This document shows, piece after piece, positions 16,671 through 20,159 of a DNA stretch of 64,000 nt. Origin of the DNA: Cystobacter fuscus (lineage in GTDB: Bacteria > Myxococcota > Myxococcia > Myxococcales > Myxococcaceae). Every line of letters starts with the position of its first letter. Position 1 is the first letter of the stretch. The stretch is from NCBI RefSeq assembly GCF_002305875.1, contig NZ_CP022098.1:9982001-10046000 (forward strand), read 5' to 3'. A program made the translations under genes and the position numbers. The notes beneath the pieces were generated by a model. That model ran no database searches and was not told the origin of the DNA. It saw only the letters and a list, made by a program, of their open reading frames with translations.

Positions 16671-18149
16671 ATGTCCTTGAGCACCCGTCCCCAGCTGACC
16701 ACGGAGTCCGGAGCCCCCGTCGCCGACAACCAGCACTCGCAGACCGCCGGAGCCGCGGGTCCGGTGCTGCTGCAGGATCACCACCTGCTCGAGAAGCTCG
16801 CCCGCTTCAACCGCGAGCGCATCCCCGAGCGCGTCGTGCACGCGGTGGGCTCGGGCGCCTACGGCACCTTCGTGGTGACCCACCCCGACATCGCGCGCTA
16901 CACGCGCATGAAGCTCTTCAGCGAGCAGGGCAAGCGCACCGAGGTCTTCCTGCGCTTCTCCACGGTGGCCGGCTCCAAGGGCGCGCCCGACACCGCGCGC
17001 GACCCCCGGGGCTTCGCGGTGCGCTTCTACACCGAGGACGGCAACTGGGACCTGGTGGGCAACAACACCCCCATCTTCTTCCTGCGCGACGGCATCAAGT
17101 TCCCGGACTTCATCCACTCGCAGAAGTACGACCCGTACAGCAACCGCCAGGAGCCCGACAACGTCTGGGACTTCTTCTCCCACTCGCCCGAGGCCACGCA
17201 CCAGTTCACCTGGCTCTTCGGTGACCGGGGCATCCCCGCGTCGCTGCGCCACATGGATGGGTTCGGCTCGCACACCTTCCAGTGGGTGAACGCGAACAAC
17301 GAGCGCTTCTTCGTGAAGTTCCACTTCAAGACCAACCAGGGCATCCGCACCCTCTCCACCCAGGAGGCCGAGGCCATCGGCGGGAAGGATCCGCAGCACC
17401 ACCAGAGCGACCTGTACGCGGCCATCGAGCGCGGTGAGTTCCCGTCCTGGACGCTCAAGGTGCAGGTGATGCCCGAGGCCGACGCGGCCACCTACCGCTT
17501 CAACCCGTTCGACCTCACCAAGGTCTGGTCCCAGAAGGACTACCCGCTCATCGAGCTGGGCCGCATGGAGCTCAACCGCACGCCGGACAACTTCTTCGCC
17601 GAGGTGGAGCAGGCGGCGTTGGATCCCGCTCACTTCGTGCCGGGCATCGGCCCCTCGCCGGACCGCATGCTCCAGGCGCGCCTGTTCGCCTACGGGGACG
17701 CGGCCCGCTACCGGCTCGGCATCAACCACACCCAGTTGCCGGTGAACTCGCCCAAGGGCGTGAAGGGCGGCGCGCGCAACTACGGCCGCGACGGCGGCAT
17801 GCGCTTCGATGGCAACGGCGGGCGCTCGAAGAACTACGAGCCGAACAGCTTCAACGGCCCCGCGCAGTCCAACGAGCCCTCGGGCCTGGGCGTCTCCGTG
17901 AGCGGCACCACGGGCACCTACGTCAACCCGCGGCACGCCGAGGACAACGACTACGTGCAGGCGGGCGACCTGTACCGGCTGATGGACGAGTCGGCGCGCG
18001 AGCGTCTCGTGGCGAACATCGCGGGCAGCCTCGCGCAGGTGAGCCGCGAGGACATCATCACCCGGGCCATCTCCCACTTCCGTCAAGCGGATGAACAGTA
18101 CGGCGCGCGCGTGGCCGCGGCCGTCCACAAGCTGCGTCAGTCGCGTTAG
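16671..18149 (+). CDS. katA: Monofunctional heme catalase
   Basis: Catalase converts H2O2 to water and oxygen. The 492-residue protein is a small-subunit (clade 3-like) catalase. The active-site histidine is in [13 protein letters not shown], the asparagine in NNTPIFF, and the proximal heme tyrosine in [16 protein letters not shown]. The catalytic region and the C-terminal helices are complete. There is no signal peptide, so it should be cytoplasmic. AGGAGAG precedes the start. It is divergent from oxyR and followed 45 bp later by an ankyrin gene, the same order as the katB-ankB pair of pseudomonads, where the ankyrin protein supports full catalase activity. Induction by peroxide through OxyR is expected. 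Confidence 0.95.
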
Positions 18150-18194: not shown

Positions 18195-18734
18195 ATGAAG
18201 ACCGGGACCCAGGAGTCGCAGTCCGCAGTGATCGACGCGGAAGTGTTGGAGGTGGCGCGCATGGCGTTCCAGTACGCGCGCGGTGGAAACGCCACGGAGC
18301 TCGCCGCGATTCTCGACGCGGGGCTGCCCGCCAACCTGCGCAACGAGCGCGGCGACACGCTGCTGATGCTCGCGAGCTATCACGGCCACGTGGACGCCAC
18401 CCGGGTGCTGCTCGAGCACAAGGCCGACCCCGAGCGCACCAATGACCGGGGGCAGACGCCCCTGGCCGGCTGCGCCTTCAAGGGAGACCTCGCCATGGCG
18501 CGGCTGCTGCTCGACCATGGCACCCAGGTCGACGGCGCGGGCCCGGACGGCAAGACGGCGCTCATGTTCGCGGCGATGTTCGACCGCGTGGAGATGATGG
18601 AGGAGTTGATCTCGCGGGGCGCGATCCCCGAGCGCCGGGATGCGGAGAAGCGCACGGCGCTCGACTACGCCCGTGCCATGGGCGCCCACCGCGCCGCCGA
18701 GCGGCTCGCGGCGTTGCAGCAGACCCCGGCTTGA
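18195..18734 (+). CDS. ankB: Ankyrin-repeat protein, catalase partner (AnkB-like)
   Basis: The 179-residue protein consists of an N-terminal helix pair and four ankyrin repeats. Examples are RGDTLLMLASYHGHVDATRV, RGQTPLAGCAFKGDLAMARL and DGKTALMFAAMFDRVEMMEE, with a last degenerate repeat TALDYARAMGAHRAAERL. No signal peptide is seen, unlike the exported AnkB of Pseudomonas, so it probably acts in the cytoplasm with the catalase next door. AAGAGAGACAGCC precedes the start. Co-transcription with catalase is likely given the 45-bp gap. The role as a catalase-protecting partner is inferred from the known gene pairing. Confidence 0.85.
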   Translation: MKTGTQESQSAVIDAEVLEVARMAFQYARGGNATELAAILDAGLPANLRNERGDTLLMLASYHGHVDATRVLLEHKADPERTNDRGQTPLAGCAFKGDLAMARLLLDHGTQVDGAGPDGKTALMFAAMFDRVEMMEELISRGAIPERRDAEKRTALDYARAMGAHRAAERLAALQQTPA

Positions 18735-18766
18735 CAATTTTTTCCCCGCCACGCACCTTGTGGAGC

Positions 18767-18850
18767 GTGAGCTTCGTTCGCGCCACCACCACGACCACGA
18801 CTACCGCCACTTCCCTCGGCGGGAGTGGACTCGTGCGTGGCGTGAGCTGA
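18767..18850 (+). CDS. Threonine-rich leader peptide upstream of thrS
   Basis: In this frame the codons 18785-18805 are ACC ACC ACG ACC ACG ACT, then ACC: seven threonines in a row, followed by Ala and another Thr (18809-18811). The peptide would be about 27 residues, start at GTG 18767 (TTG at 18758 is an alternative) and stop at TGA 18848. Its start is weak: GGAG lies only one base before the GTG. Leader peptides rich in the cognate amino acid are the hallmark of translation-coupled attenuation, and the next gene is a threonyl-tRNA synthetase. The same repeat read in another frame is His-rich, so chance composition must be kept in mind. Confidence 0.5.
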   Translation: MSFVRATTTTTTTATSLGGSGLVRGVS

Positions 18851-18899
18851 CGAACGCACGGTCCCTTGCCCCGCCGTCTTCCGGCCGGGGCGTCCGTGC
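18831..18899 (+). promoter_or_regulatory. Mutually exclusive hairpins in the thrS leader
   Basis: Segment 1 (TCGTGCGT, 18831-18838, last codons of the leader ORF) pairs over eight bases with segment 2 (ACGCACGG, 18854-18861, one G-T pair). Segment 2 also pairs through GCACGG (18856-18861) with segment 3 CCGTGC (18894-18899). That second hairpin is extended by GCCCCG (18868-18873) with CGGGGC (18886-18891). Only one can form. A ribosome stalled on the Thr codons would leave segment 1 free, while one reaching the stop would cover it. No T-run follows, so classical intrinsic termination is not evident. Confidence 0.45.
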
Positions 18900-18953
18900 A
18901 AGCGCTCAGTGCTCCGACCGGAAAACCTCTCTCTTTCCGATTCGGAGTCACCC

Positions 18954-20159
18954 ATGCTCGACGTTCATGATCACCGTTCCCTGGGCCAGCGCCTGGACCT
19001 CTTCCACCTGCAGGAGGAGGCCCCCGGCATGGTGTTCTGGCACCCCCGGGGCCACCTGCTCTACCGGCTCATCGAGGAGCGCGTCCGCAGGCAGATGCGA
19101 CTCGAGGGCTACGAGGAAGTGAGGACGCCTCAACTGCTCGCCCAGCCCATCTGGGAGCGCAGCGGCCACTGGGAGAACTTCCGCGAGAACATGTTCCAGC
19201 TCGCCGAGGAGGGCGGGCGGCACCTGGCGCTCAAACCGGTGAGCTGCCCCGGCCACATCCAGCTCGTGCAGCGCATGGGGCCCAGCTACCGCGACCTGCC
19301 CTTGCGGCTGGGCGAGTTCGGACTCGTGCACCGCAGCGAGCCCAGTGGTTCGCTCCACGGGTTGTTCCGCCTGCGCCAGTTCACGCAGGACGACGGGCAC
19401 ATCTTCTGTGCCGAGGAGCAGATGAGGGACGAGGTCCTCCGCTTCTGCCGCTCGCTGCGCGCCTTCTACGCCGACTTCGGCTTCGAGGACGTGCAGGTGG
19501 CCTTCTCCAGCCGTCCCGCCCAGCGGGCCGGAAGCGATGAGGTGTGGGACGTGGCCGAGTCCCTGTTGCTCGAGGCGGCCCAGCAGGCGGGGCTGCACTG
19601 CCGCATGCAGCCGGGACAGGGCGCGTTCTACGGGCCCAAGCTGGAGTTCGTGCTCAAGGATCGGCCCGGCCGCGACTGGCAATGCGGGACGATCCAGCTC
19701 GATCTCGTGCTCCCGGAGCGCTTCGATCTGCACTACGTGGATGCCTCGGGGCAGAAGCGCCGGCCGATGATGTTGCATCGCGCGATGCTCGGGAGCCTCG
19801 AGCGCTTCATCGCCATCCTCCTGGAACACCACGGGGGCGCGCTGCCCGCGTGGCTGTCACCGGAGCAGGTGGTGGTGGCCTCGATCGGGGAAGGAGCCGC
19901 GGGCTACGCCGAGCGCTTCGCCGCGAAGCTGCGCGAGGCGGGCTGCCGGGCGCACGCGGATGCACGAGCCGAATCGCTCTCCCGGAAGATCGTCGACGCG
20001 CATCAGGCCGGAGTGCCCTGGCTCGTCGTGGCGGGCGCTCGCGAGGTGGAGAAGAACGGGGTCCGGCTGCGGCGGCGGGATGGCGAGCAGCATGACCTCG
20101 CCTGGGAGGAAGCACTGGCGGAGCTCGTCGCCGAGTGCCGGCCCTCGCCCTCGGTGTGA
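18954..20159 (+). CDS. thrS: Threonyl-tRNA synthetase lacking TGS and editing domains
   Basis: The enzyme charges tRNA-Thr. At 401 residues it holds only the class II catalytic core and the anticodon-binding domain; the usual bacterial form is about 640 residues with TGS and editing domains in front. Motif 1 is around RLIEERVRRQMRLEGYEEVRTP, motif 2 is RSEPSGSLHGLFRLRQF, and motif 3 is MLHRAMLGSLERF. The three zinc ligands are conserved: Cys in SCPGH, His in QDDGHIF, His in LHRAMLG. ATG at 18954 is preceded by GGAG six bases upstream. Without editing it would be prone to charging serine unless another enzyme corrects this. It is probably a second copy used under special conditions; the Thr-rich leader supports starvation control. 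Confidence 0.9.
   Translation: MLDVHDHRSLGQRLDLFHLQEEAPGMVFWHPRGHLLYRLIEERVRRQMRLEGYEEVRTPQLLAQPIWERSGHWENFRENMFQLAEEGGRHLALKPVSCPGHIQLVQRMGPSYRDLPLRLGEFGLVHRSEPSGSLHGLFRLRQFTQDDGHIFCAEEQMRDEVLRFCRSLRAFYADFGFEDVQVAFSSRPAQRAGSDEVWDVAESLLLEAAQQAGLHCRMQPGQGAFYGPKLEFVLKDRPGRDWQCGTIQLDLVLPERFDLHYVDASGQKRRPMMLHRAMLGSLERFIAILLEHHGGALPAWLSPEQVVVASIGEGAAGYAERFAAKLREAGCRAHADARAESLSRKIVDAHQAGVPWLVVAGAREVEKNGVRLRRRDGEQHDLAWEEALAELVAECRPSPSV

Follow-up and report, generated by a model that had tools for sequence, protein, structure and literature searches.

The question raised by this locus is what a short reading frame crowded with threonine codons does shortly before a gene for threonyl-tRNA synthetase (ThrRS). 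The window, by which we mean the whole 64,000-nucleotide stretch analysed (G000:C1:9982001-10046000), belongs to a myxobacterial genome of 12.35 Mb. An earlier sequence-only reading had proposed that this frame, together with competing hairpins, attenuates expression of an editing-free thrS according to threonine supply. That reading was followed up here by comparison with relatives and by RNA folding.

The short thrS gene and its threonine-rich leader

The short thrS (18954-20159, forward strand) encodes a 401 aa protein made up only of the class II catalytic core and the anticodon-binding domain, the TGS and editing domains being absent. It passes the TIGR00418 model (451.7 bits against a cut-off of 383.65) and contains the active-site motifs CPGH, HRSEPSG, QDDGH, YGPK and LHRAMLGS, so that the description of the gene as editing-free holds. 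The same genome also has a full-length ThrRS gene at another locus (G000:C1:5810753, open frame of 677 aa), and the short ThrRS is therefore a second enzyme, without a proofreading domain. Among 145 genomes of the order, 67 from 11 genera carry short thrS, and nearly every one of these that was searched at low stringency has the long gene as well. No inhibitor-resistance role for the short enzyme is indicated by residues with known involvement in resistance: YGPK keeps its glycine, which we take to be Gly463, a position studied for ThrRS inhibitors (PMC11252418), and LVLP keeps its leucine, presumably the borrelidin position. An operon or fixed gene neighbourhood was likewise rejected, since the 5' neighbours in the window are a catalase gene (16671-18149) followed by an ankyrin-repeat gene (18195-18734), whereas in Myxococcus L034 inspection by eye found a transporter-like ORF on the 5' side and CBS-like and MsrB-like ORFs on the 3' side.

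The leader ORF extends on the forward strand from a GTG at 18767 to a TGA at 18848-18850, comprising 27 codons plus stop (VSFVRATTTTTTTATSLGGSGLVRGVS*). As first read, it contains seven consecutive Thr codons (18785-18805) with an eighth one codon further on (18809-18811), and it ends about 100 bases 5' of thrS, the exact distance to the ATG (18954) being 103 nt. Within the window the seven-codon pattern has no second copy, shuffles giving an expectation of 0, and all frames of the whole genome together hold only about 8 distinct sites. A longer ACN repeat of ~16 codons is present in the same genome outside the window (G000:C1:3322253-3322299).

None of the 70 orthologue loci in the order lacks a leader ORF; they provide 67 distinct sequences and include two loci from records duplicating or neighbouring other genomes counted. 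In all 70 it has 21-28 codons, 6-10 of them for threonine, and a stop 100-123 nt 5' of thrS; every one of the 67 distinct leaders thus places 6-10 Thr codons before a ThrRS gene, translation of the leader itself being inferred. Threonine is kept while the third position varies. Counted on the leader tree, codons with a Thr majority changed 38, 22 and 55 times at positions 1, 2 and 3, or 21, 12 and 52 times when the variable edge codon was left out, and the remaining leader codons had no comparable third-position excess. Usage in the leaders was ACC 321, ACG 125 and ACT 76. These counts indicate that the leader Thr codons are selected as threonine at the codon level. They also settle a weakness conceded at the outset, that the ACC/CAC repeat reads as His-rich in another frame: third-position changes in the Thr frame would turn His into Asp or Tyr, and the His frame was rejected as the coding frame in favour of the conserved Thr frame.

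Linkage between leader and gene was strict. When 193 genomes of the phylum were searched with a covariance model of the region (R1), under strict filters that could lose weak matches, 66 genomes were positive; each contained a single match, which in every case ended at the start codon of short thrS, and under these filters no match away from short thrS was obtained in any of the 193. No Thr-run leader precedes any of the seven housekeeping thrS genes that were checked in the group. Two relatives of short thrS lie outside the order, L036 (from a Polyangiaceae MAG, 54% identity) and L158 (G162, 57%), and both genes are preceded by Thr-run leader regions (L036:2260-2503 and L158:820-1003), with leaders reading ...VTTTTPTTTLRGG... 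and VRRAPHGATTTTTVKS..., respectively, and with a GC hairpin before the gene. From these leaders outside the order, the association of leader and gene appears to be old. The 3' half of the leader in L036:2260-2503 is different, and no obvious TTGAC box stands there at the usual distance.

The poor start signals of the ORF, the other weakness noted initially, are accounted for if the leader is read from a leaderless transcript, as it seems to be. A putative promoter (18731-18759, forward strand) consists of TTGACA at 18731-18736, a 17-nt spacer and CACCTT at 18754-18759; its first box shares bases with the ankyrin-repeat stop codon, a neighbourhood that is not kept in Myxococcus. A script located a TTGAC box at the matching place in 66 of 67 leaders, and all 67 have it once L022, located by hand, is included; a CAYYTT-like hexamer follows 17 nt past the box in most. 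The start codon (GTG in 57 distinct leaders, ATG in 10) falls exactly 36 nt past the first T of TTGAC in 59 of 67 and at 35-37 nt in 65 of 67. Box, 17 nt, hexamer and about 7 nt make ordinary promoter geometry, by which transcription would begin at the leader start codon, and this constant spacing is the reason for regarding the leader as probably leaderless, which would account for the missing ribosome-binding site. The start site itself is inferred from this geometry. TTGAC at the right spacing with a start codon and Thr codons occurs at a handful of places genome-wide, at control level; the spacing alone is therefore no evidence, and its conservation is.

Five RNA segments and their alternative pairings

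Between the Thr codons and the gene, the forward strand can be divided into five segments. Segment 1 (GGCGGG..GGAC.CGTGCGT, 18818-18838) is the 3' part of the leader ORF and pairs with segment 2 (ACGCACGGTCC..CCCGCC, 18854-18875), which can pair instead with segment 3 (TTCCGGCCGGGGCGTCCGTGC, 18879-18899). Segment 4 (GCTCCGACCGGAAA, 18911-18924) can pair either with segment 3, leaving the Shine-Dalgarno sequence of thrS free, or with segment 5 (TTTCCGATTCGGAG, 18934-18947), whose 3' end is the Shine-Dalgarno GGAG itself (18944-18947). The sequence-only reading had paired the 3' end of the ORF with 18854-18861, and TCGTGCGT (18831-18838) is indeed complementary to ACGCACGG (18854-18861); the pairing is real, and the extent given to it was too short, as 1:2 comprises 17 pairs joining 18818-18838 to 18854-18875. 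The GC hairpin described as ending at 18899 was recovered in the minimum free energy fold. A second hairpin (18912-18947), which contains the Shine-Dalgarno sequence, had been overlooked. In the window 3:4 and 4:5 have 12 pairs each, and the leader folds more stably than its shuffles (z -5.3).

Support from the alignment of 67 leaders differs among the helices. In 2:3, 95.6% of cells were paired and the covariation score exceeded all 500 shuffles. In 4:5, 80.4% were paired, 47 cells carried changes in both partners (23 in shuffles), and the covariation score of 0.122 (0.052 in shuffles) was never reached in 500 shuffles. For 3:4 pairing reached 85.7%, against 30-59% when the arms were slid, and no covariation was found on this alignment. 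For 1:2 it was 85.8%, with few covarying columns, and column-wise pair counts on the MAFFT alignment were for most measures no better than shuffles. This weak signal reflects indels that shift the register, and hence a per-sequence arm-swap test was used, in which cognate and swapped arms of 13 representatives below 80% identity were compared over 5000 permutations. The permutations disregard phylogeny, and the p values are indicative only. Cognate arms were the more stable for 1:2 (-35.0 against -31.7 kcal/mol), 2:3 (-29.6 against -26.4) and 4:5 (-18.3 against -14.8), each at p<0.0002; for 3:4, among the same 13 representatives, they were not better than swapped ones (p=0.41). Against dinucleotide-shuffled arms the mean z was -3.2 for 1:2, -3.0 for 2:3, -1.8 for 3:4 and -2.7 for 4:5.

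On this evidence pairings 1:2, 2:3 and 4:5 are judged to coevolve across clades, with the reservation that segment 1 is coding sequence and part of its conservation could lie at the protein level. The 3:4 pairing, which would free the Shine-Dalgarno sequence, is conserved without covariation, and is supported but weaker. The earlier proposal had asked for an alignment of relatives, in which the Thr codon run, the leader stop and the two pairings it had named are all kept, with compensatory changes; the outcomes it had listed as refuting, relatives without a Thr run or pairing and codon changes that lose Thr identity, were not seen. One clade (L017-L021 and L154-L156) has ATG AAG starts and swapped 1:2 helix sequences, GCGGTC/GACCGC, a natural compensatory set. 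The most divergent orthologues, L024 (G009:C347) and L023 (G067:C1070), have 64% identity and lie at contig ends. L024, the most divergent member, has no clear 4:5 Shine-Dalgarno hairpin, which may reflect a variant output or poor assembly.

Energetics of the switch and the inferred mechanism

The two combinations of helices were each obtained by folding. The single-sequence minimum free energy fold from 18816 gave 2:3+4:5, and unguided RNAalifold on 23 representatives gave 1:2+3:4; in these predictions both states arise unprompted, one per method. With segment 1 available, the two lie only 3.7 kcal/mol apart in the window. Masking segment 1, as a ribosome at the stop codon would, favoured 2:3+4:5 by 11.6-16.4 kcal/mol, and with segments 1 and 2 removed from play the minimum was 3:4. 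Several sequences, the window among them, still prefer 2:3+4:5 at equilibrium even though segment 1 is free. Once 1:2 has formed, 3:4 and 4:5 have on average much the same probability, and the modelled opening of the Shine-Dalgarno sequence exceeded 0.3 in only 4 of 67 leaders. Because switching at equilibrium is this weak, the switch would have to depend on the sequence in which the helices form as the RNA is transcribed, as other attenuators do. The 1:2 hairpin alone has -37.4 kcal/mol and is complete once 18876 is transcribed, ahead of segment 3. The geometry of the ribosome also fits: with its A site on one of the seven Thr codons it would reach, given the size of its footprint, to roughly 18800-18818, leaving segment 1 free, and at the leader stop it would cover the inner part of that segment.

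The reading that we consider probable is a threonine-responsive, ribosome-mediated translational attenuator of the second ThrRS gene. What comparison of relatives establishes is the conserved Thr codons, the pairings 1:2, 2:3 and 4:5 and the strict linkage to short thrS. The start site, the stalling, the direction of the response and the translational output are inferred, direction and output from the layout, and no expression data bear on them. Transcription would start at or next to the leader GTG, so that a ribosome would enter the leader immediately. If Thr-tRNA were plentiful, this ribosome would reach the leader stop and cover segment 1; segment 2 would then pair with 3, segment 4 would be left for 5, and the thrS Shine-Dalgarno sequence would be hidden. 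If Thr-tRNA ran short, through threonine starvation or a block of the main ThrRS, the ribosome would stall on the Thr codons, 1 would pair with 2, 3 would be freed for 4, and with the Shine-Dalgarno sequence exposed the reserve ThrRS would be made. The layout meets the general criterion for an attenuator, mutually exclusive helices of which the first overlaps the leader ORF. It also meets an ermC-like one, since hairpin 4:5 holds the thrS Shine-Dalgarno sequence, its alternative partner 3:4 resting on conservation and L024 being the exception. The comparative data thus support the original attenuation reading in its kept Thr run, stop and pairings, with the response in vivo remaining an inference.

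Whether the output might be transcriptional with the same sensor, by termination at 2:3 or 4:5 despite the missing T-run or by Rho acting on untranslated RNA, deserves the most serious consideration among the alternatives, and we regard it as unlikely without dismissing it. The hairpins are strong and GC-rich, a hidden Shine-Dalgarno sequence would favour Rho polarity anyway, and Rho has also been suggested for the Mycobacterium cys leader (PMC1262725). The absence of a T-run had already been remarked on, and no T-run or other terminator-like site was found in 18600-19100 or is visible in relatives; the U-run expected after the hairpin of an intrinsic-terminator attenuator is lacking. Moreover, the coevolving second hairpin holds the Shine-Dalgarno sequence in nearly all relatives, a feature for which termination has no need. 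This conserved sequestering hairpin supports the suggestion that translation, and not intrinsic termination, may be what is controlled.

The remaining explanations dispense with amino-acid sensing or with function altogether. A ribosome leaving the leaderless ORF might simply reinitiate at thrS; the distance of 100-123 nt in all relatives and a leader that is likely always translated are compatible with this, but it would leave unexplained both the Thr codons, kept through synonymous drift and matching the product, and the mutually exclusive pairings, and we think it very improbable. Slightly less credible again is the view that the region is an RNA element recognised by the ThrRS protein, as the E. 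coli thrS operator is, the Thr run being secondary. In E. coli, translation of thrS is repressed when ThrRS binds tRNA-like arms in the leader of its own gene. Autoregulation is mentioned in PMC2965389. Against such an element, the short ThrRS lacks the N-terminal domains of the E. coli enzyme, and what is conserved is a cognate codon run with competing helices that matches no Rfam family. That a low-complexity ACC/CAC repeat in GC-rich DNA arose by chance with incidental hairpins can draw on the other ACN repeats in the same genome, but is already contradicted by 70 of 70 orthologues, by coevolving arms and by a single copy per genome tied to one gene, and can hardly be entertained.

Known regulators and significance for the Myxococcota

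No Rfam match at gathering threshold, to a T-box or any other known RNA, was obtained in the window, and such an identity for the leader was rejected. In Firmicutes, thrS and thrZ are under T-boxes, thrZ being a second, inducible ThrRS. T-boxes resemble the translational attenuator proposed here in that synthetase expression is raised when the cognate tRNA is uncharged, but they bind the tRNA directly, and the thrS leader has no match to them. Those of ileS in Actinobacteria are translational and hide the Shine-Dalgarno sequence (PMC1262725). Anabaena thrS2 encodes a second, editing-impaired stress ThrRS under Zur/zinc control (PMC4787780); it is comparable as a second editing-defective ThrRS made under stress, and differs in answering to Zur and zinc rather than to a Thr leader and in an editing domain that is degenerate, not absent. 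The leaderless polycysteine uORFs of Mycobacterium (Canestrari et al. 2020, cited in PMC9031893 and PMC13236596) share a codon run for one amino acid in a short, apparently leaderless ORF, with control attributed to elongation speed on the run codons. They concern cysteine, a cys operon and Actinobacteria, whereas the present leader concerns threonine, an aminoacyl-tRNA synthetase, Myxococcota and a five-segment covarying RNA. No conserved hairpins were found in the cys leaders of Mycobacterium (PMC1262725).

Classical attenuators (trp, thr, ilv, pheST, trpS2, leuS) also combine a cognate codon run with a stalled ribosome that selects between exclusive hairpins, and in pheST, trpS2 and leuS the target is likewise an aminoacyl-tRNA synthetase; they differ in ending with a U-run terminator, whereas the last hairpin of the thrS leader hides the Shine-Dalgarno sequence. 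The earlier remark that attenuation of synthetase genes is rarely described in Gram-negative bacteria was overstated, as control of E. coli pheST by a leader peptide is established. Lopatovskaya et al. 2010 reportedly cover attenuation of such genes. Attenuators with terminators have also been predicted for Streptomyces trpS2 and leuS (PMC1262725). Translational attenuators of the ermC type share the 1:2/3:4 versus 2:3 layout and the release of a hidden Shine-Dalgarno sequence by a stalled leader ribosome. They control antibiotic resistance genes, the stall being set by drug and nascent peptide; an amino-acid shortage is not their trigger, and their sequences are unrelated to the thrS leader. 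No open-access report of a Thr leader at thrS, or of attenuation in myxobacteria, was found, and as the subscription literature was not covered, priority is uncertain.

Judged across relatives, the thrS leader is real, conserved and more elaborate than first proposed, with every comparative test supportive except 3:4 covariation. We incline, with limited assurance, to a broader interpretation: an old and previously undescribed RNA regulator of the Myxococcota, in which a leaderless Thr uORF and a five-segment Shine-Dalgarno switch would allow a reserve ThrRS only when Thr-tRNA runs out, a substitute for a T-box that would trade accuracy for charging under starvation or ThrRS-inhibiting antibiotics. 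For myxobacteria, it looks like an unreported means of detecting uncharged threonine tRNA in the absence of a T-box. If this is true, it would represent an amino-acid-sensing attenuator of an aminoacyl-tRNA synthetase that is translational, not transcriptional, outside Firmicutes and Actinobacteria, and an RNA switch of ermC-like layout that is yet triggered by uncharged tRNA. The puzzling editing-free second ThrRS would then have a function, as a reserve enzyme made on demand, and nutrient sensing by leaderless uORFs would be predicted in Myxococcota.
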